Shown: positions 2,696 through 58,379 of the stretch, piece by piece | Numbering within the stretch: the stretch's first letter is position 1 | How the letters are laid out: each line of letters opens with the position of its first letter | Origin: a virus | DNA: 64,000 nt | Direction: 5' to 3' (one strand) | IMG/VR virus record: IMGVR_UViG_3300034759_000344 | Span: 1-64,000 of that record | Notes under the pieces: generated by a model | The model's input: the letters and a program-made list of their open reading frames with translations, nothing else | Told to the model about the DNA's origin: nothing | Databases searched by the model: none | Program-made: the position numbers and the translations under genes

Positions 2696-2749
2696 TTTGA
2701 ATAAAAAAAACATAAAATGAATAAAAAACATAAAAGGAGGTATGTAAAA

Positions 2750-3769
2750 ATGGAATTGAATTTCACTGTTACACCAAATGAATTGAAAGAAAGGCTTATG
2801 CGTTTGACAGGAATGGATGAACCACCAGCAGTATTCTTATGGGGACAGCCGGGTATTGGAAAAACTCAAGTAGTTTATCAGGTAGCAGAAGAAGCAGGGC
2901 TGGAATGCAAAGTAATGGTATTGTCCTTGATGGATCCAGTAGAGCTTAAAGGATTCTTGTTCCCAAATAGAAAAACCAAAGAAGCTGAGTATTTCCCGTT
3001 GAGCTTTCCTAAAGAGAAGTTCATACTGTTTTTTGACGAGTTCAATACTGCCCCAGTTGCTGTGCAGAATGCAGCTATGAGAATTGTACTGGAAAAGAAA
3101 ATAGGAGATTATGCGTTGCCTAAAGGAACACTGGTTATCTGTGCCGGCAATCGTATGAAGGACAAGGTAAACGTATCCAAGATGTCGTCAGCAATGGTAA
3201 ATAGGGCTATCCACTATGGAGTAGTTCCCAGCTTTGATGATTTCAAGCAGTACTGGTATAGCAAAAAGTTAGCACCAGAAGTAATAGGTTACTTGGAAAT
3301 GTATCCAAGCGATTTGTGTCATGAACCAAGTGTAGATATGCCGTTCCCAACTCCCAGAACTTGGGAAATGGTAGCCAGATATGGAAAGTTTGATGACGTA
3401 CCAACCATTAGCGGATTGCTTGGAGATAGTACTGGATTGAAGTTCGCTAAATTCGTTGAGAATTGCTATGGAATAGATGAGGTAATCAAGGAAGTAATAA
3501 AAGGTGAAAAGATATATCCCAAAGAAGAAGAAACTGAAAGAAGCTACATGCTTATATCTTCGTTGGTTGATTTGACTGATGAAAACAACCTACCAACTAT
3601 AGTGGAATACGTAGTAGAGGCTCCAGATTACTTCTCACCATTTGGTATAGCTTTGATAAAGAACTTGAGGCTCAAAGGAATACAGCCACAAGCATTCTTG
3701 AGTCCAAAATGCAAAGCAGTAACCACCAAGTTGTATAAGAAATTCAAGTTTGCTTTTGAAAATGCTTGA
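2750..3769 (+). CDS. MoxR-like AAA+ ATPase
   Basis: 339 residues from ATG 2750, which sits 9 nt behind AAAGGAGG. Walker A GQPGIGKT at residues 32-39 and Walker B ILFFDEFN at about 92-98 are followed by a CAGN sensor-like stretch and an NRAIHY motif typical of MoxR/CbbQ ATPases. Such proteins usually act as chaperone-like ATPases with a VWA-domain partner, and the next gene is exactly that. Role in the phage is unknown; metal-dependent remodelling of a target protein is an inference from family behaviour. Confidence 0.88.
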   Translation: MELNFTVTPNELKERLMRLTGMDEPPAVFLWGQPGIGKTQVVYQVAEEAGLECKVMVLSLMDPVELKGFLFPNRKTKEAEYFPLSFPKEKFILFFDEFNTAPVAVQNAAMRIVLEKKIGDYALPKGTLVICAGNRMKDKVNVSKMSSAMVNRAIHYGVVPSFDDFKQYWYSKKLAPEVIGYLEMYPSDLCHEPSVDMPFPTPRTWEMVARYGKFDDVPTISGLLGDSTGLKFAKFVENCYGIDEVIKEVIKGEKIYPKEEETERSYMLISSLVDLTDENNLPTIVEYVVEAPDYFSPFGIALIKNLRLKGIQPQAFLSPKCKAVTTKLYKKFKFAFENA

Positions 3770-3786
3770 TTTAAGAGGTGGTTAAG

Positions 3787-5133
3787 ATGACAAGGAAAAC
3801 ACCGAAACAGATAATCCGGGAACACATAGGATTGATGGTGATTAAATATCCAGCGCTGGCACTTCCGCTTTTGAAGTGCCAGCTGGTAGTTGAGGATATA
3901 AAGCCGGGATTTGTAGCAGCTATAGATCCTGTACATAAGAAGCTATACGTATCGCCAAGTTTAGCTGAGCACAAGAGTGAAACTATATGCTTTGTGTTGG
4001 CTCATGAAGCACTCCACGTTATAACTGGAACTCATGGAAGAAGAGGAAACAGGGATCCTTTCTTATGGAATATCGCCACCGACCTCGAAGTAAACTGGGT
4101 TTTAATCGATGATATGAAGTTGAAACCAGCTAATTTTACTGGATATGTGAACGAACAAACAGATTTATCTCCACTATATAATGCAAAATACAAACACGTG
4201 TATGCTGAAAAGATATATGAGGAAATACAGAAGTTTACCAAGCAGATATCGCCAAGGGTAACTATTGATGCGCAGGGAAATGTTATGATTGATTTGGGAT
4301 TACCTGATGGAAGCGGTCAAGAAAGTGGCCAAGAAGGTGAGGAAAAAGACCAACAGCCTATCCCAGGAACTGTGCATGTGGATAGTGACGGAACGATTAC
4401 CGTAATTGGAAAAGATGGAGAAATAATTGCCAGAGGAAAGATAAGTGATATATACAAACAACCAGACAGCAATGAAGAATCCAGGAAATTGAAACAGGAA
4501 GAACGAGAAGCTGCAGTAAACGTAAGCCAGATGGCTAAAAAAGGCATAGGAAAAATTCCAGCAGGATTGCAAAGATTAGTAGACAGATTGGTAGACTCAA
4601 AAGTATCCTGGAAGGACTTGCTGGAAGACGCCATAACCACGGTAATGGAGCGCAACGACTACTCGTATAGAAGACCTAACAAGTTGTATATGATGGATGA
4701 CTTCTATGTTCCAACTTTGTTAGGTGAAGAGCGCAATATTGTGGTAGTAGTTGATACTTCAGGGAGTATTGGAGAAGAAGAGTTAAGAACCTTCTTATCC
4801 GAAGTTAAGGCACTGATTGAAATGTATAAAGTAACCTATATAGCTTGCGATTGTAGTGTGTACAGCGTGGTTGAAGATGTACAAGATATGCAAGAAGTGT
4901 TTGAGAATACTCACGGAGGTGGTGGTACTTCCTTTGCTCCAGCATTTGAGAAGATAAGCGAACTGGATAAAGATAAGATAATAGTGATATTGATGACTGA
5001 TGGATACAATGGGGAACCGGAAATGGTATATAAGCCAGACAATGTAGACAAAGTCATAGCATTAACTACAACTGATAAAGCTCCTGAAGATATAGAGTAT
5101 GATATATTGATTAAAATCAATGATGAAGAATAA
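3787..5133 (+). CDS. VWA-domain protein with N-terminal putative metallopeptidase domain (DUF2201-like)
   Basis: 448 residues from ATG 3787 (ribosome-binding site AAGAGGTGG). The N-terminal part has HEALH at residues 73-77, a zincin-like signature as in DUF2201_N. A charged, Glu/Gln-rich linker follows. The C-terminal domain carries the MIDAS motif DTSGSIG (about residue 322) and later GGGGTSFAPAF and LMTDGYNG, as in von Willebrand A domains. It forms a classic MoxR/VWA pair with the gene 17 nt upstream. Its stop lies directly before the retron-type RNA array, so read-through transcription into the array is possible. Confidence 0.87.
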   Translation: MTRKTPKQIIREHIGLMVIKYPALALPLLKCQLVVEDIKPGFVAAIDPVHKKLYVSPSLAEHKSETICFVLAHEALHVITGTHGRRGNRDPFLWNIATDLEVNWVLIDDMKLKPANFTGYVNEQTDLSPLYNAKYKHVYAEKIYEEIQKFTKQISPRVTIDAQGNVMIDLGLPDGSGQESGQEGEEKDQQPIPGTVHVDSDGTITVIGKDGEIIARGKISDIYKQPDSNEESRKLKQEEREAAVNVSQMAKKGIGKIPAGLQRLVDRLVDSKVSWKDLLEDAITTVMERNDYSYRRPNKLYMMDDFYVPTLLGEERNIVVVVDTSGSIGEEELRTFLSEVKALIEMYKVTYIACDCSVYSVVEDVQDMQEVFENTHGGGGTSFAPAFEKISELDKDKIIVILMTDGYNGEPEMVYKPDNVDKVIALTTTDKAPEDIEYDILIKINDEE

Positions 5134-5140
5134 AGAATGC

Positions 5141-5261
5141 GGTGGTAAAACCTGGCAGGAAATAAACTGCCATAGGTTGATGCTGCGTCAACCGAGAGAA
5201 GCCTAGCTACCGCGATGGCATCGGCTTGGATGGATGACTGTCGCCGGTGGATCATATCACC
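5141..5261 (+). ncRNA. retron-like unit 0 (diverged)
   Basis: a1 GGTGGTA 5141-5147 can pair with a2 TATCACC 5255-5261 (one G-U). A hairpin GGCAG/CTGCC replaces the first core hairpin. The second hairpin, GGTTGA (5175-5180) with TCAACC (5188-5193), keeps the 7-nt loop and shows a compensatory change relative to units 1-3 (GGCTGA/TCAGCC). A long hairpin around CCGCGA and TCGCCGG follows, and CA precedes a2 as in every other unit. The sequence core is lost, so this assignment is structural. Confidence 0.5.
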
Positions 5262-5268
5262 ACAGATG

Positions 5269-5430
5269 TAAACTTGGGTAACACTAAAACAACATAAGAA
5301 GCTTAAACAAAGCAGTATATATCAGGCTGACGTTTCGTCAGCCAATGTACCAAAAGATCCTACCTGAAGCCTTCCTCGGGTGTGTGAACGCACACGTTCA
5401 CACGTTGGAGAAAGGACATACCCAAGTTTA
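5269..5430 (+). ncRNA. retron-like unit 1
   Basis: a1 TAAACTTGGGTA at 5269-5280 is perfectly complementary to a2 TACCCAAGTTTA at 5419-5430 (12 bp). Core hairpin GGCTGACG/CGTCAGCC at 5325-5332 and 5336-5343. The unit-specific msd-like hairpin has a perfect 9-bp tip GTGTGAACG/CGTTCACAC at 5382-5390 and 5395-5403, with further pairing CCTT/AAGG below. CA precedes a2. Confidence 0.75.
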
Positions 5431-5441
5431 AAAGTATCCAG

Positions 5442-5590
5442 GTTTGGGTAACATTAACGCAAAAAACAACATAAGAAGCTTAAACAAAGCAGTATACATC
5501 AAGGGTGATGCTTCGTCAGCCGATGTATCAAAAGAACCTGCTAAAAGCAAGGTCTTGACCGCTGAGCCAGCGGTCAGTCCATACCCAAAC
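5442..5590 (+). ncRNA. retron-like unit 2
   Basis: a1 GTTTGGGTA at 5442-5450 pairs perfectly with a2 TACCCAAAC at 5582-5590. The core hairpin GGGTGA/TCAGCC (one mismatch) is flanked by TACATC/GATGTA, extending the stem. The unit-specific hairpin TGACCGCTG/CAGCGGTCA (5556-5564 with 5568-5576, loop AGC) is short and perfect. CA precedes a2. Confidence 0.75.
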
Positions 5591-5595
5591 GTAAA

Positions 5596-5767
5596 GCACA
5601 GGTAACGTAAAAACAACATAAGAAGCTTAAACAAAGCAGTATACATCAAGGCTGATGCTTCGTCAGCCGATGAGAGATAAGTAACATCCATTGGTAAAGA
5701 ATGTGCCAGGTCCTCGGACCGACCTTTGGGTCGTCCTGCGGTGGCGCATTCTTTAGCATACCTGTGC
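5596..5767 (+). ncRNA. retron-like unit 3 (RT-proximal)
   Basis: a1 GCACAGGTA at 5596-5604 pairs perfectly with a2 TACCTGTGC at 5759-5767; its sequence differs from units 1 and 2 but the complementarity is kept. Core hairpin GGCTGA/TCAGCC. The unit-specific msd-like stem pairs 5695-5708 with 5742-5755 (14 bp, one G-U), topped by CGACC/GGTCG. CA precedes a2. The RT ribosome-binding site starts 9 nt downstream. Confidence 0.78.
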
Positions 5768-5797
5768 AAGAAATAGGAAGGAGGTGCAAAAATATAA

Positions 5798-6733
5798 ATG
5801 GGTAAATCATTTATAGATCCTAATAATCCTGGTAACTGGAACATCTTTAAGGTGAAGAAAAGAGGAGGTGGTTGGAGAATCATAGAAGAGCCTAAACCGG
5901 CATTAATGGAGCAGTATAAGAAACTGTTCGATGAACTGATGAGGAGCAATGTGATTAGAAACCGTTTGTTCTGTCCTTTTAGTCATGGATTTGTGCCGGG
6001 AAGAAGCATAGCAACTAATGCACAGCCGCATGTAGGTAAGAAGTATGTAGCAGCTATAGATATCAAAGACTTCTTTGGATCCATATCCGTAGATAAACTC
6101 TACGGTCTCTATCCTCAAGTCGGTACAGAAATAGCTGATATAGCAAGATCCATAGTCAAACGTCCGTATCTTGAACATGTAAAAGAAACGCTGACAAATA
6201 CTGTGTTTAAAACAAGAGAAAAAAATGGGGAGGTGGTAACTTATCTACCGCAGGGAGCACCAACTTCTCCCATCATAGCTAATTTGTATATGTCCAGGTT
6301 TGACTGGAAGTTTGGAATGACCTGTGCTAAACACGATATAGCTTACACCAGATATGCAGATAATATAACCATATCTGGAGATGATCCTCAAAAGCTGAGA
6401 GAAATGCTTAAGTATGGGTTAGGGCTCATTAAGCACGATATGCAGTTAAGAGTTAAGTATGTAAGAGTTATGCCTTACTGGAAAAAACAGAAAGTGTGTG
6501 GAGTGGTAGTTAACAGCAAGCTGAACGTAGACCGTGAATACCGAAGAAGAGTAAGAGCTATGCTGCATCAAATAAATCAGAAAAGCGAAGAAGAAAAGAG
6601 GAAAATACTGGGAATGGCAGCATATATCCACAGCGTCAGAAGACTAAACGAGGCAAATCCTGAAGACCTTCCCATCAGCAATGCAGAATACTACGCATTG
6701 AAGAGGGCTGAAAAAGCTCTTAATAAGATGTAG
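5798..6733 (+). CDS. retron-type reverse transcriptase
   Basis: 311 residues, a normal retron RT length, ATG 5798 behind GGAAGGAGGTG. Retron-diagnostic NAxxH is present as NAQPH at residues 74-78. Catalytic Asp of motif A is in AAIDIKDFF (D88), motif B-like PQGAPTSP is at 151-158, and the YxDD box reads YADN (186-189), so the second Asp is Asn. The VTG motif of retron RTs appears as VCG (233-235). QGAPTSP rather than a GxxxSQ signature argues against a diversity-generating RT. Directly upstream lies the tandem RNA array. No obvious toxin-like effector is fused or adjacent, so a phage-serving role (decoy, counter-defence or superinfection exclusion) is only inference. Confidence 0.9.
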   Translation: MGKSFIDPNNPGNWNIFKVKKRGGGWRIIEEPKPALMEQYKKLFDELMRSNVIRNRLFCPFSHGFVPGRSIATNAQPHVGKKYVAAIDIKDFFGSISVDKLYGLYPQVGTEIADIARSIVKRPYLEHVKETLTNTVFKTREKNGEVVTYLPQGAPTSPIIANLYMSRFDWKFGMTCAKHDIAYTRYADNITISGDDPQKLREMLKYGLGLIKHDMQLRVKYVRVMPYWKKQKVCGVVVNSKLNVDREYRRRVRAMLHQINQKSEEEKRKILGMAAYIHSVRRLNEANPEDLPISNAEYYALKRAEKALNKM

Positions 6734-13862: not shown

Positions 13863-14876
13863 CTATGCAACGTATTTGTACCTCCAAGAGGCAAAACATA
13901 CAAACTTGCAATCATCTGGTTTAGCCCGTTGGGTTAGTCTCTTGCCAGTATTGATGTCATGCAGGCTTATTCTGTTGTTTATGTGCCCGCCAACATAGCA
14001 CAGGCCGTATTTTGGGTGCTTAACGTAACTGCCACGTTTGAAGCCAAGTGACCTTGTACCACCTTGTCTCCTGCGGACACCACCTTTGGCGAACTGCAAC
14101 ATATGCAATTGCCTTCGGTTAAACCGCAGTGGTACAACGACAAGCAGTTCTGTATTGTCTGGTTGAACATGGCCGCCAGTATACCAGTTAGCCAAGCACC
14201 ATGCGTCAACGCAGTGCGCGTCAAATGACTCGTCCAGTTTCCTGCTTGTTTTCTTCAACCCATGAGACTTCCTTAGCTGTTTTGTTTCCCAGCCTTCCTT
14301 TGTGTACACTTGACCAAATCTAGCTAATTCCGAGTAAAACCATGTCTTGCCTACTTCAAGTGGCGTAAAGGATTGATTCCAGCGTTTCTTACCAGGTCTT
14401 GTAGTAGCTTTGATATTTTCAACCACGAAGACAGTTACTGGGAAGAGTCTCGTTAACCATTTAGCTATCCTCAACCGCCACTGCCAACGCGCTTTCGTTG
14501 AAGGAGGTAAGTCTTTATTCTTACGGTTGTTAAACTTGGCAGGGCGTCTGCGAGTTTTGCGATACCTTCTGGCTCTGCGCATATTGCGTCTGGTTTCTAC
14601 AGCTTCCTTAACGTGCGTTACAGCGTGCGCTTGAACGTTAAGATATGTGTGTGCTTCTGACTTAACTGAATATCCTTCCATCTTGCTTCCTAGATCAATG
14701 CCCACAGCTATCGGTTGTTTATACCTAGCTGAAGGTTCAACATTGAGCCTTACACAAAACACACCTTTGCTCCAAAACGGAGTAGCTTTACCAGACTTAA
14801 TCCATCGCCTTGCCCTCGAAGGTTTTGTTGGCATTAGAGGATTGCCATTCTTATCAACAACAGGAACAAACCTCAT
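13863..14876 (-). CDS. isrB: IsrB, RNA-guided RuvC-like nickase-type protein (HNH-less IscB relative)
   Basis: 337 residues, ATG 14876 behind GGAGG. The N-terminal PLMP motif (NPLMP, residues 12-16) is diagnostic of the IscB/IsrB family. RuvC-I IGIDLGSKMEG-type (VGIDLGSKMEGYS, D61), an arginine-rich bridge helix (94-112), RuvC-II VFVVENIKA (E153) and RuvC-III FDAHCVDAW (D219/D224) are all present. Only about 65 residues separate RuvC-II and RuvC-III, leaving no room for HNH, hence IsrB rather than IscB. Known IsrB uses an omega-RNA encoded upstream and nicks DNA. Confidence 0.88.
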   Translation of the reverse strand: MRFVPVVDKNGNPLMPTKPSRARRWIKSGKATPFWSKGVFCVRLNVEPSARYKQPIAVGIDLGSKMEGYSVKSEAHTYLNVQAHAVTHVKEAVETRRNMRRARRYRKTRRRPAKFNNRKNKDLPPSTKARWQWRLRIAKWLTRLFPVTVFVVENIKATTRPGKKRWNQSFTPLEVGKTWFYSELARFGQVYTKEGWETKQLRKSHGLKKTSRKLDESFDAHCVDAWCLANWYTGGHVQPDNTELLVVVPLRFNRRQLHMLQFAKGGVRRRQGGTRSLGFKRGSYVKHPKYGLCYVGGHINNRISLHDINTGKRLTQRAKPDDCKFVCFASWRYKYVA

Positions 14877-15111
14877 GCGGTAAGCCTCCTTGTCGGAGTA
14901 TGTTCAGCCCTTCGGCCATGTCCAGCAGGCTTAGCATGGTCTTTGCCATGCGTGGCATTAAGCGGTTCTGCCGTAGAGCCTGGAGCTAGGGCGGCACCCC
15001 AGGGTACTTGGTAGCCCACTGGACGTAGCGGATTGGGTACCGCTTGGCCTAGTCAACCGTTGCCTTGCTGCCGCCATCGCAAGCCCCCGAATTTATTCGG
15101 GGGTGGTTGAC
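14877..15111 (-). ncRNA. omega-RNA region of IsrB
   Basis: About 235 gene-free nt upstream of isrB, GC-rich and full of local pairing on the minus strand (terminal CCCCCGAA/TTCGGGGG stem, then GCGGCAGCAAGGC, AGCCTGCTGG, GCCATGCGTGGC-type stems). For IscB/IsrB the guide lies at the RNA 5' end and is copied from DNA flanking the element. Here that would be the bases immediately above 15111, reading GATGATAATGAAACAAT on the minus strand. The RNA ends are not visible from sequence alone. Confidence 0.65.
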
Positions 15112-19859: not shown

Positions 19860-20312
19860 TCAACAAGCCGAACAGGTATCCAATAGACACAAACAAAACC
19901 AACAAAGCCACATTTGAGTAGAAAAGCATGCGATACGTACAAGCCGTATCGAAGTGCTCCTGGTACCGCACCACTTTATGAACCAAACCCCAGAATACTG
20001 CCAGCAGATTAAAATATCTGCATCTTTTAGGAGTTCGCCTCTTTGTTTCAAATTGGCATAGACTTTCGAAGCTATATCAAAAATATCCCGAGTGTCCAAT
20101 AGTACCAAACCAAGTGTTTTACAAAGTGATTCAAACTTTGTTAACTTAGTGGTGGCATTAGCTGCCAAAAGGCCACGCTTTATCTCATAATAACTTATCC
20201 CATTTATGAAGATTTTTTTGCCCTCTAACGCCTTTCTTCGCGCTATCCGTTTTATTTTTTCATTATCTTTCAGAATTGCCGTTATGATATTCGTATCAAG
20301 TACATATGTCAT
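19860..20312 (-). pseudogene. truncated VapC-like PIN toxin fused out of frame to a membrane-protein remnant
   Basis: The first about 105 residues are a PIN domain: DTNIITAIL (D6), SYYEIKRGLL and KDADILI. After DADILI the expected C-terminal strand with the last acidic residue is absent. The downstream DNA instead encodes, in another frame, LLAVFWGLVHKVVRY...NVALLVLFVSIGYLFGLL, a membrane protein fragment ending near 19835. A deletion joining two genes explains this; the toxin is probably inactive. Confidence 0.65.
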
Positions 20313-20557
20313 TTAAAAAGAAGTCTCCTCTTTACTGCTTCATCAAATATTTCAATTTGTTCAGGATCCAGGTCCCTCAAGAGCCCTGACATCGCTTCTA
20401 ATGCTAAAATCCGCTCTATTCTTTCATAAAGTTCTTCATCGGAAATTTCACTCAATTCAAGAGAAGTCTCACTTAGCATTTCCGAAATAGCCTTCAATAA
20501 TTCATGTTTATCTACTCCTTCAAAAAGTCTCTCTTCACGCGTTATTTTATCAATCAT
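20309..20557 (-). CDS. VapB-like antitoxin candidate
   Basis: 82 residues, acidic and helical, whose stop overlaps the PIN start (ATGA), the usual arrangement of a toxin-antitoxin pair. No clear AbrB or RHH signature, so the assignment rests on position. Confidence 0.5.
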   Translation of the reverse strand: MIDKITREERLFEGVDKHELLKAISEMLSETSLELSEISDEELYERIERILALEAMSGLLRDLDPEQIEIFDEAVKRRLLFK

Positions 20558-21701: not shown

Positions 21702-23046
21702 GTGAACTACCATCCACCTTTAGAGGTGGAGGCCTCGTGAGAAGTTTGGTAGTTTTTACACTACCCTTATTCTCACAGGACGGTTCACACGCCCACTACT
21801 GACTATCTGCTTTGCAGCAGACTCGCCAGCTACTTTTGCAAGTATATTTATCGCTCCGTTTATATCCGCATTCATCACATTCCCACAATCTTTGCATACA
21901 TACAACCCTCTATATTTTCTGTTACCTTTCCTCACAACCTTGCACCTGCTACACATCTGCGATGTGAAACTTTCATCTTCTTCAATGTACTCTATACCAT
22001 ACTCTTCACACTTTGCTCTGAGTTTCCTCTTGAACTTATCATACGGTATGCTCACAAAATTTTGATTGTTTACCCTGCCAAGATTTATCTCCTGCTTTAT
22101 ATCCTTCATTTTTCCAATTACTATTGTGCCTATCTGGTTGTTCAAACAGTGCTTGGTTATTAAACTTACTGCCTGATTCAAAAAGTTGTCAACTACATGC
22201 TGCCTCTTGAGGGAAATCTTTGCAAGTTTTGAACCATATCTAATCCCCTGTTTCGAGTATATACTTTGCAGTCTTGCTCTTTCCTTGTTGTACCATCGGT
22301 TGATTGATTTTATATACCTGCCTTCTATCAAAAAAGCAGTCCCGATGGTATCAACCACCGATGCAAAGTTGTCAAGCCCAAGGTCTATAGATAAGTACTT
22401 ACTTTTGTCAAGACTATAAGACTGTTTTTCTTCCTCATACACATACTCAATTTCAAACCATCTGCCATGAAACTTTGGCAGTATCCTGACCTCTTTTATT
22501 CTCTTGCCCAAAATGTTAGCTGGCAGGTCAAAATACAAGTGCCTTACCCCAAACTCCCTGTAAAAATTCCTGCCAAGGCTAAGTCTTACTTTGTCTTTTT
22601 CTACCTTGAACTGGTCTTTCGGAAAACTGAGAAGAAACATGCCATCCTTTGGCAGATACTTCGGTGGAGAAACTTTCCAATCGATTTTTCCCTCTTTCTT
22701 AGTTGCCAGTAGTTTAAAAAACGACTTAAAAGCTTCGTCTACTGCTTGTACTGTCTGCTGGGCAACCTGTGATGGAAGCAGTCTGTAGTTTTTGTTCTCT
22801 TTTACAATGTGATATACACTTTCATATCGTAGATATTGTTGAGTATTGAAATAGTGCTGCCTTATGTGGTAAAGAGCATAATTGTACAGGTTTTTTGATA
22901 CATGGCATAATATCCGCAGTAGTCTGTATGTTTGTTTGTTGCATCTTATATGATTTTTCTGAGTTTTGTACATTTTACATCACCTAAAGAATATTATATC
23001 GTATTCTTTAGCAATTCATCTCCATCTTAGAGAAGATGGAGTCTTC
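21702..23046 (-). mobile_element. IS200/IS605-family element with tnpB only
   Basis: The right end at 21702 is GTTCAC with hairpin CCACCTCTAAAGGTGG. The left end carries TCCATCTT/AAGATGGA (23021-23028, 23033-23040) and an inner AAAGAATA/TATTCTTT hairpin (22986-23009) that contains TATAAT for tnpB expression. The 3' end of tnpB plus the right end would encode the omega-RNA, with the guide just beyond 21702. No tnpA. Confidence 0.8.
21756..22973 (-). CDS. tnpB: TnpB, RNA-guided RuvC nuclease
   Basis: 405 residues. RuvC-I SIDLGLDN (D197), RuvC-II EEDESFTSQMCS (E334), a four-Cys zinc finger (C341, C344, C360, C363) and RuvC-III NADINGAINIL (D370) are all intact. Normal TnpB length. Known homologues cut DNA guided by an omega-RNA and promote retention of the element. 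Inserted in the 3' end of a nucleotide-hydrolase gene, with the same orientation as the phage operon. Confidence 0.92.
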   Translation of the reverse strand: MYKTQKNHIRCNKQTYRLLRILCHVSKNLYNYALYHIRQHYFNTQQYLRYESVYHIVKENKNYRLLPSQVAQQTVQAVDEAFKSFFKLLATKKEGKIDWKVSPPKYLPKDGMFLLSFPKDQFKVEKDKVRLSLGRNFYREFGVRHLYFDLPANILGKRIKEVRILPKFHGRWFEIEYVYEEEKQSYSLDKSKYLSIDLGLDNFASVVDTIGTAFLIEGRYIKSINRWYNKERARLQSIYSKQGIRYGSKLAKISLKRQHVVDNFLNQAVSLITKHCLNNQIGTIVIGKMKDIKQEINLGRVNNQNFVSIPYDKFKRKLRAKCEEYGIEYIEEDESFTSQMCSRCKVVRKGNRKYRGLYVCKDCGNVMNADINGAINILAKVAGESAAKQIVSSGRVNRPVRIRVV

Positions 23047-55833: not shown

Positions 55834-56964
55834 TTACACCTCACATTTATTCCAAGGTAACTTTATACGCACTTCGTTTTGGTATCTCAAAAGCATTTTG
55901 CACACATCAGGTATGGGAATGGCTAAATCGCCCCAAAACTCAAGCTGTGCTCCCAAGCATCCTCCAGCACAGTACTCTTGGTTGATAGGGAATTTGCACT
56001 TATGACATATCAGATTGTTATTGCGGTGGAAGTAATAAAAGAACAGAAACTTATTGCAGTCCATGTTTTCTAAATCATGAATGCTTCCAATCTTTAAATC
56101 AGGGTATATTAAGCGGTGACAAGGATAAATACTTCCATCCCAAGCTACGGTAAGCTGGGTTTGAAAACTGCAGGTCAGCCCTCTTTTTACCATCCCTGGT
56201 GTGCGGAATAGGTTAAACTGAGTTTCTCCCAGATTGATGTTTTCTTTTTGTATATAATTAATACACTTCCAGCTTTCCTCTATAAGGGTGTTTATGCGGT
56301 CGTCGTGCCAGGTTCCTCCGTTCCTCACCTGGAGCAGGAATAAATCATCTCCTACTGGATGGTCCTTGCCTCGAACCAAGCGCACGTTATCTACAAAAAA
56401 CTTGAAAGTGTCAAACAAAGTATGCACAGTGGGAGCGTAGACCATAGGATGAAATCCACACAAATATCCTTCTCCATAAAGCTTAAAGAGGTTGTCGTAG
56501 TCAAGTTTTAAGTGTTTATACTCAGGGAGGCTGGGCCTCTGTTTTTCTTCCACATAAGGACCGTCAACTGAGAAGCTGAGGTTGAGCTTTCCGTACTTTT
56601 TATACAACCGCTTTATCTCTTCGGGATAGGTGGAGGCAACCCACCCGTTGTTGGGTATATTGACTAAAAATATCTGTGGGTCTTTAGCTGCTTTCTGAAG
56701 TACGTACTCAACCAAGTCTAACTGTAGAAGAGGTTCTCCACCGAACAAATCGATTTTAAACGGACGGTTTCGATACTGCTTTATCTTGGCTACAGCGGTA
56801 TCTATAGTTTCTATGCTCATTTTTGGAGACTTATTACCTTGATTGTGTCGGGGCATGTAGCAGTAGCGGCAGCGTAAGTTGCACTCTGGTGACAGTATTA
56901 ACTCTAAAGTCTGGAACAGTTGGTGATTTAGTAGTCTTTTAACATGCAGGAATAGTTCGTTCAA
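55834..56964 (-). CDS. radical SAM/SPASM maturase 2
   Basis: 376 residues from TTG 56964. Radical SAM cluster C28-x3-C32-x2-C35 (CNLRCRYCYM), then GGEPLL. The SPASM C-terminus has CSFQTQ...YPCHRLI and CHKCKFPINQEYCAGGC. SPASM enzymes typically modify peptides or proteins (sactipeptides, sulfatase maturation). The start overlaps the first maturase gene by 26 nt, so both are co-expressed. Confidence 0.88.
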   Translation of the reverse strand: MNELFLHVKRLLNHQLFQTLELILSPECNLRCRYCYMPRHNQGNKSPKMSIETIDTAVAKIKQYRNRPFKIDLFGGEPLLQLDLVEYVLQKAAKDPQIFLVNIPNNGWVASTYPEEIKRLYKKYGKLNLSFSVDGPYVEEKQRPSLPEYKHLKLDYDNLFKLYGEGYLCGFHPMVYAPTVHTLFDTFKFFVDNVRLVRGKDHPVGDDLFLLQVRNGGTWHDDRINTLIEESWKCINYIQKENINLGETQFNLFRTPGMVKRGLTCSFQTQLTVAWDGSIYPCHRLIYPDLKIGSIHDLENMDCNKFLFFYYFHRNNNLICHKCKFPINQEYCAGGCLGAQLEFWGDLAIPIPDVCKMLLRYQNEVRIKLPWNKCEV

Positions 56965-58084
56965 AATTGCTCTGCCCCCATTCTTTGTAGTGTTTGTAGA
57001 ACACTTTTACTATTTTGCAGAAATGAAAGTTTGGTGAGTAGTGAAGTCGGTTTAGATTGTGCATGTCCATAGGACATTGCCAGCACAAAAAGGGAAATTC
57101 TTGGTACACTTCACATTCTTGCTGTTTACAGAAAGCAGCTCTAATTAGGTCGTAGTTATATTTGAAATACACATTGCGGTAAACGGCTTTGGGATCCAGG
57201 TACTCTGCATAAACGTTCCCTAATTTGAAGTAGTCCTGCTTGGTGTTGTCTGTAGACGGTCCGTGGCAGTGGTAAATGCTTCCATCTAAATCAACACATA
57301 CTTGAGAATGACATGCTGAACAAACGTTGTTGGGCCTGTTGAAGTACACAAACCATCCCAGTTGTGCCTTTTCATTCTTTTCACAGTACTCTTTACAGCG
57401 GTAAAGGTCTTCATCAAGAGCTTGGGCAGCTTCTTCATCATAAACACTGTCTTTGACTAAGGTAACTGGAGACATAGGATGTTTTAGCTCTTCCCAAAAG
57501 AATTCGCAGGCTTTGTAGAAGTGCCCTTTTTTGACTTGTTCAGGACTTAAAGTGGACTTTATCATCAATTTACTGGTGAAATCTGGTATTTCTTTGGTCA
57601 TTATTTCGTAATGTTCCATAACTTTATGGAAAGACCCTTCTCCACCCGCTGTCTTTCTTGCGTAGTCGTGTACTTCTTGAGGTCCATCAAGGCTTAGCTG
57701 TATGCTTTCAATTTTGTCCCAGTGTTTTTTAACAAACTTGACATAACTTTCGGGAGTGGTAGTGGCATTGGTTGACCAGTTGGTGGTTACTGGACAGTCA
57801 GAGTAATTTTGGAATATGTAAGTAAGTACTTCTTCAATGGTATCCCATTGACATAGTGGTTCGGCACCCCACGGTATGATCTTGCACGGAGTGTTGGGTT
57901 TAAGTATGTTGGGAAAAACCTTTCTTATCGGCTCTAAAAGCGGAATAACTTCATTGGCTTTAATTTCTATTTGTTTGTAGGTAGCATCTCTGATATAGCA
58001 GTAAGAGCAGCGGAGATTACATTTTTTGGACATGGGAATTTCTATAACATAAATGCTTTTAAGAAATTTGGACAAGTCTACCAT
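56939..58084 (-). CDS. radical SAM/SPASM maturase 1
   Basis: 381 residues from ATG 58084 (GGAGGCATTTT). C22-x3-C26-x2-C29 (CNLRCSYCYI), WGAEPLCQW, and a Cys-rich SPASM region (CSACHSQVCVDLDGSIYHCHG, CKQQECEVYQEF, CWQCPMD). The start overlaps the end of the His/Tyr-rich gene at 58059-58379. Two paralogous but diverged maturases in tandem suggest two modifications or two substrates. Confidence 0.88.
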   Translation of the reverse strand: MVDLSKFLKSIYVIEIPMSKKCNLRCSYCYIRDATYKQIEIKANEVIPLLEPIRKVFPNILKPNTPCKIIPWGAEPLCQWDTIEEVLTYIFQNYSDCPVTTNWSTNATTTPESYVKFVKKHWDKIESIQLSLDGPQEVHDYARKTAGGEGSFHKVMEHYEIMTKEIPDFTSKLMIKSTLSPEQVKKGHFYKACEFFWEELKHPMSPVTLVKDSVYDEEAAQALDEDLYRCKEYCEKNEKAQLGWFVYFNRPNNVCSACHSQVCVDLDGSIYHCHGPSTDNTKQDYFKLGNVYAEYLDPKAVYRNVYFKYNYDLIRAAFCKQQECEVYQEFPFLCWQCPMDMHNLNRLHYSPNFHFCKIVKVFYKHYKEWGQSNFERTIPAC

Positions 58085-58379
58085 AAAATGCCTCCAATAC
58101 TGCCTCAAATGAAGGTAAGTAGCAAGGACCTTTTGCACTTACCGCATTGTTGGTACTGTTAACTCCATCTACACTACGTTGATGGTGGGCAGTAGAGTTC
58201 AAAGTGGAATAGCTCAAACTGTGCCCATCGTTACTGTATACTGCTTTGTTGTAGCTTGTGTAGTAAGAGCTGTTGTGAGTAGGACAGGCAGCTTCCAAGC
58301 TCTCTATAGCAGTCCTTAATTCAGAAATATGTACTTGTCTCACTTTTGTGGTATTAGTTATACTATCGGTCCAAGACAT
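58059..58379 (-). CDS. precursor-like protein P2 (putative radical SAM substrate)
   Basis: 106 residues, ATG behind GGAGGC. N-terminal MSWTDSITNTTKVRQVHISE then LRTAIESL matches the start of P1. The C-terminal part is rich in Ser, Tyr, Asn and His (CPTHNSSYYTSYNKAVYSND...AHHQRSVDGVNST). It ends inside the first maturase gene. Leader-plus-core layout beside two maturases suggests a modified peptide or tail component; the substrate role is inferred. Confidence 0.65.
   Translation of the reverse strand: MSWTDSITNTTKVRQVHISELRTAIESLEAACPTHNSSYYTSYNKAVYSNDGHSLSYSTLNSTAHHQRSVDGVNSTNNAVSAKGPCYLPSFEAVLEAFYGRLVQIS

Follow-up and report, generated by a model that had tools for sequence, protein, structure and literature searches.

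To our knowledge, retrons are described as one reverse transcriptase (RT) with one non-coding RNA (ncRNA). The locus analysed here raises the question of whether a phage can carry several such RNAs for a single RT. It lies in a 64-kb stretch of DNA (hereafter the window) that is part of a 96,186-base virus record, with phage terminase, DNA polymerase A, ribonucleotide reductase and tail genes present. Repeats occupy the gap between the end of a VWA gene (5133) and the start of an RT gene (5798), and a sequence-only reading had taken them for a tandem array of three retron-like RNAs. The features of the region are as follows.

2717-3769, + strand: MoxR-like AAA ATPase, candidate partner (Pfam AAA_5, 6e-7; a homologue with the same neighbour occurs in locus L059)
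3778-5133, + strand: metallopeptidase-VWA protein, candidate partner (Pfam DUF2201_N, 2.4e-28; DUF2201, 2e-14)
5138-5264, + strand: unit U0 (fold, unit finder, arm matrix); a1 TGCGGTGGTA 5138-5147, a2 TATCACCACA 5255-5264; SL1 TGGCAG..CTGCCA; SL2 GGTTGATG-CTG-CGTCAACC 5175-5193, then a variable hairpin; hairpin GGTTGATGCTGCGTCAACC
5269-5430, + strand: unit U1 (fold, unit finder, arm matrix); a1 TAAACTTGGGTA 5269-5280, a2 TACCCAAGTTTA 5419-5430; core with SL1 GCTT-AAACA-AAGC; SL2 5325-5343; terminal hairpin 5370-5415
5442-5590, + strand: unit U2 (fold, unit finder, arm matrix); a1 GTTTGGGTA 5442-5450, a2 TACCCAAAC 5582-5590; core; SL2 about 5502-5523; terminal hairpin 5556-5576
5596-5767, + strand: unit U3 (fold, unit finder, arm matrix); a1 GCACAGGTA 5596-5604, a2 TACCTGTGC 5759-5767; core; SL2 5650-5668; long terminal hairpin 5692-5758
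5798-6733, + strand: stand-alone retron-type RT, 311 aa (PADLOC, PDB and AlphaFold comparisons)

Anatomy of the array

The metallopeptidase-VWA gene ends 5 nt before U0. An unguided fold of 5131-5797 split into exactly four domains in a row. Every domain is closed by arms of its own and contains a small SL1, an SL2 triloop closed by G-C and a differing terminal hairpin. The SL2 stem is 8 bp long in U0, U1 and U3 and interrupted in U2. A 34-nt core (AAAACAACATAAGAAGCTTAAACAAAGCAGTATA) and the hairpin that follows it are common to U1, U2 and U3, while U0 is more diverged. The msr part is constant and the terminal hairpins are unrelated from unit to unit; all four units have the msr stem-loop and msd-type hairpin of a retron, as well as the complementary a1/a2 ends beside an RT that characterize retron ncRNAs. 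The core (put at about 33 nt), shared hairpin and unit-specific second hairpins of the sequence-only reading were found where it had placed them, as were its perfect arms of 12, 9 and 9 bp in U1, U2 and U3. Its three units stand, but the total is four: the diverged U0 at 5138-5264, seen by both the fold and the unit finder, had been overlooked.

A 22-nt stretch of the core occurs nowhere else in the window and in none of 100 dinucleotide shuffles of it. The unit finder, a search for SL2 plus arms that was built after the data had been seen, recovered four units in the array against a mean of 0.22 and a maximum of 1 in 60 dinucleotide shuffles; whole-region folds of long leaders proved a poor unit counter. 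Since MAFFT alignment misplaces the arms of the window units, arms were compared directly. RNAduplex energies for a 5′ arm paired with its own 3′ arm versus the best other 3′ arm were −15.4 versus −9.0 for U1, −13.2 versus −9.2 for U2 and −14.1 versus −3.2 for U3. The own partner was the best pairing in every row and column of the arm matrix for the window (four units) and for two loci from other phages, L014 (four) and L043 (six), and in all three the arm differences are compensatory. The matrix therefore agrees with the earlier claim that the differing arms each fit their own partner.

Database comparisons returned no known family. The array gave no blastn match in phages, and at both Rfam thresholds nothing relevant was seen, with no family above its gathering score. 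The terminal hairpins had no match above chance in the rest of this genome or in the fetched loci. Three exact matches to the 22-nt core in viral contigs all lie within a gene of another phage group and were set aside as chance. Separately, the start of the array (5131-5141) and the U3 terminal hairpin (5745-5755) share 11 bp of perfect complementarity; this is near the chance level, though such a pairing could clasp the whole array.

The sequence evidence as a whole speaks for a tandem array that is natural, made up of retron-type ncRNAs and paired with a single phage RT. We consider it probable that the system is viral, derives from a retron and carries a multi-template cassette, in which one RT would serve four ncRNAs and yield up to four small DNAs.

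The reverse transcriptase and the priming junction

By profile, PDB sequence and predicted fold, the window RT is one of the retron RTs. It matches Pfam RVT_1; its best PADLOC profile is RT_XIII (8.2e-61), followed by other retron types, and the PDB sequences closest to it are those of the retron RTs Ec86, Ec67, Ec78 and Ec83. The AlphaFold model (pLDDT 84.6) has retron RTs as all of its 15 best structural matches (Foldseek), with group II intron, diversity-generating retroelement and DRT enzymes ranking after them. The NAxxH motif of the retron clade, which had been pointed out from the sequence, is present as TNAQPH. Among the neighbours scanned, PADLOC called no type XIII accessory proteins.

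The active site is less conventional. The window RT has YADN where its relatives in L014-L018 have YADD; almost all of the 30 relatives in the alignment retain the second Asp of this box, and among RTs compared closely YADN was seen in the window RT only. The first catalytic Asp residues, D88 in motif A and D188 in the YADN box, are kept, as is the fold. The triplet at the start of region Y is VCG in place of VTG, a feature common to the whole L014-L018 subclade, and variants of this triplet occur in retrons Vc81 and Ec48 (PMC6868368).

In retrons the G directly 3′ of a1 is the branching G (PMC6868368). In the window this G is missing: an A stands both after a1 and before a2 in all four units. 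G is present in L014, L043, L057, L130 and the canonical loci, and 28 of 37 loci, with arms picked blind to the neighbouring bases, have G after a1 together with G before a2. Retron Se72 likewise has no apparent priming G (PMC6868368). Because the window units are paralogues, the A/A change may be one event, though both positions were hit alike, and priming from A in the window phage is possible on this evidence. With the branching G, YADD and VTG all lacking, what this phage carries is not a textbook retron.

Given YADN and an A for the branching G, the window enzyme could be weak or inactive. Taken further, the RT might no longer, or not chiefly, be a polymerase, and might form with its RNAs an RNA-protein scaffold or an RNA sponge. 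This would suit a YADN box confined to the window RT among those compared closely, and an A/A junction present four times over. However, both of these Asp residues (D88 and D188) are retained, along with the fold and the RNA units, and the same base at both junction positions in four units looks like a co-adapted primer site, albeit in paralogues, so we regard this reading as unlikely.

Related RTs and arrays in other phages

Scans of viral contigs with the single RT or VWA sequence found no relative, and a single scan of genome contigs yielded only a distant Lindowbacteria RT. RT-alignment scans of the viral contigs recovered 97 distinct viral loci. The closest RTs, 33-39% identical, are those of L014, L015 and L018, on phage contigs of 119-194 kb, and of two smaller contigs (L016, L017).

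Independent arrays also stand ahead of diverged RTs in about a dozen further phage contigs; they have between two and six units in the canonical retron arrangement, and in these large phages both YADD and the branching G are intact. The largest, in L043, has six units of the form TATA/G ... G/TATA, with unit-specific outer arms and compensatory differences. In L014, more than 1.3 kb of mostly non-coding DNA upstream of the RT holds five units, four of them starting a1-GTCT. There are three units each in L057 and L130 (at one or both finder settings), two to three each in L128, L075 and L080, and two each in L120, L101 and L065; shuffle means for the independent arrays were 0.02-0.32. Two further loci, L037 and L107, have two units with weaker statistics, while L088 and L141 depend on the finder settings. 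Canonical retrons in the same set have a single unit, which lies some 260 nt ahead of the RT match. Ec86 itself was recovered (L067), with an SL2 of GGATGTTG-TTT-CGGCATCC, the same form as the array SL2, and the junction TGCGCACCCTTA/G ... G/TAAGGGTGCGCA.

Close relatives of the window RT in L015, L018, L021 and L022 have a single unit; at L018 3941-4000, the a2 arm appears to overlap the RT start. The RTs of L016, L017 and L068 leave no room for an ncRNA, and in L016 and L017 the RT directly follows the upstream gene. On a tree of 46 RTs, ten changes of the array label are required, and well supported branches force six or more of them, which indicates that arrays arose or were lost repeatedly; within one RT clade, array size ranges from 1 to 6. 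Homologous RTs with only one unit had been named in advance as a case against the array, and many close relatives do carry one, but others carry up to six. Tandem retron RNAs are thus a recurrent and apparently undescribed architecture.

The single-unit relatives (L015, L018, L021, L022) raise the alternative that only one unit works, probably U3, which adjoins the RT, and that U0-U2 are decaying tandem duplicates, as the divergence of U0 might suggest. Decay would destroy arm pairing, yet full pairing is kept in every unit despite the sequence differences; L043 has six intact units with compensatory arm changes, and arrays recur, with at least six label changes on the RT tree. We find a lone working unit quite improbable. 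That the repeats are cis-acting RNA, acting in attenuation, processing or translational control of the RT gene with no reverse transcription, is very improbable: they do sit in the RT leader, where small hairpins are common, but the order a1-SL1-SL2-variable hairpin-a2 is the layout of a retron ncRNA, recurs before retron RTs with G/G, and is repeated up to six times in an array, which is not expected of a leader. Practically no credence can be given to another RT system (diversity-generating retroelement, group II intron or Abi/DRT), as weak cross-matches to group II maturase and Drt2 stand against best profile, sequence and structure matches that are all retron RTs, and no group II intron RNA was found by Rfam.

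MoxR-VWA neighbours

No PADLOC retron effector of known type lies beside the RT, and the MoxR-VWA pair is a candidate by linkage. The same VWA family is found upstream of the RT in L014 (8e-32) and L059 (4e-13); L059 has the MoxR gene too, and L014 has one some 2 kb farther upstream. In another phage RT clade, 10 of the 12 members have a MoxR-VWA pair of a different kind (VWA_2, ViaA-like) immediately before the RT. A scan of viral contigs for the VWA_2-type VWA gave 54 loci, with a retron RT just downstream in all of the best 18 and in two more. Eight of these 18 are contigs that supplied the queries, so the independent support comes from L120, L122, L124, L125, L126, L128, L130 and L141. An RT is absent from all 80 other DUF2201-VWA loci, making the VWA-RT link weaker in the window subclade, and Moorella phage MTATph1 has a MoxR-VWA pair with no RT nearby. 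For pairs of this kind, a part in virion assembly has been proposed (PMC7824862).

The MoxR-VWA retron clade also has a conserved gene of ~160 aa that finds no match in Pfam and overlaps the RT gene's 3′ end (L043 4741-5220, L088 4756-5247; homologues in L021, L022, L057, L087 and L089).

Other features of the phage genome

On the − strand at 13863-15111, an RRXRR protein of 337 aa adjoins a HEARO RNA (108.9 bits); we take the protein to be IsrB-like and the whole to be an OMEGA-type mobile element within the phage genome. A transposase gene (PHROG transposase) at 21756-22973, − strand, is presumably TnpB-like. Two adjacent proteins encoded in the tail gene block (55834-58138, − strand) have radical-SAM-type CxxxCxxC motifs (CNLRCRYC and CNLRCSYC), and at 19860-20557, − strand, what may be a VapC-like PIN protein has a small partner upstream; the pair looks toxin-antitoxin-like by eye.

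A proposed multi-template system

In the multi-template cassette that we favour, one transcript reaching from the VWA gene's end into the RT gene would contain the four retron-type ncRNAs. Every unit would fold separately, with its own a1/a2 clamp and with SL1 and SL2 as a shared handle for the RT, which would copy each unit's own msd-type hairpin, priming from the A after a1 in place of G. The product would be as many as four small DNAs, each different, attached to similar RNAs or held by them. A constant msr with differing terminal hairpins fits one RT reading a common handle and copying different templates, and we predict from the sequence that several DNAs are likely to be made in the window phage.

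The most likely use would be in conflict during infection, with the RT platform displaying several DNA hairpins alongside the MoxR-VWA remodelling pair. In known retrons, the msDNA holds an effector until a phage protein, SSB or a methyltransferase for example, disturbs it (PMC13158370). The array might let the phage sense competing phages through several inputs, or its DNAs might be decoys for host retrons or other DNA-sensing defences. The fullest version, a viral retron whose A-primed msDNA panel, made from a natural array, is coupled to MoxR-VWA and used for multi-input sensing or as a decoy when phages are in conflict with each other or with the host, is a tentative and, in its entirety, doubtful proposal.

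Comparison with known systems

We found no report of natural tandem retron ncRNAs in the open-access literature, to which the search was confined. The multi-unit architecture claimed as new on first reading is therefore apparently so, with priority less than certain on open-access literature only, but it is not unique to this phage, about a dozen others having arrays: it is real and recurrent. With arrays of two to six templates recurring in large phages that are unrelated, viruses would be using retrons to produce sets of DNA hairpins on a single protein platform. Such arrays also make the purpose of msDNA sequence variety directly testable, with the same msr handle and different msd in one cell, and link retrons to MoxR-VWA machines, while the window phage offers a possible retron with non-G priming.

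The window system shares with retrons (Ec86/Retron-Eco1 and relatives; nearest profile, PADLOC type XIII RT) the RT family and fold, an ncRNA just upstream, the a1/a2 clamp, SL1, the triloop SL2 and a variable terminal hairpin. It differs in having four units per RT, A for the branching G, YADN and VCG, and in lying without a known effector in a large tailed-phage genome. The single-unit phage retrons with MoxR-VWA (L021, L022, L086, L089) have the same order of MoxR, VWA, ncRNA and RT and a stand-alone RT of about 300 aa, but unlike the window they have one unit, a G/G junction and another VWA family. The jumbo-phage MoxR-vWA chaperone pairs (PMC7824862) and RavA-ViaA resemble the metallopeptidase-VWA and MoxR ATPase of the window, but were proposed for virion assembly and have no RT link. 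The RTs of Staphylococcus jumbo phages (PMC10638138) are likewise stand-alone enzymes in large phages; in the Staphylococcus phage record examined here (L012, 153 kb), a hairpin scan found no retron-type unit within 2.5 kb upstream of the RT. Lastly, engineered retron arrays for genome editing (Gonzalez-Delgado et al. 2024), as cited in PMC12405507 and PMC12548924, also place several retron ncRNAs on one RT. Compared with the engineered arrays as those papers cite them, the phage arrays are natural and viral, with diversified arms and hairpins, and would be their natural precedents.
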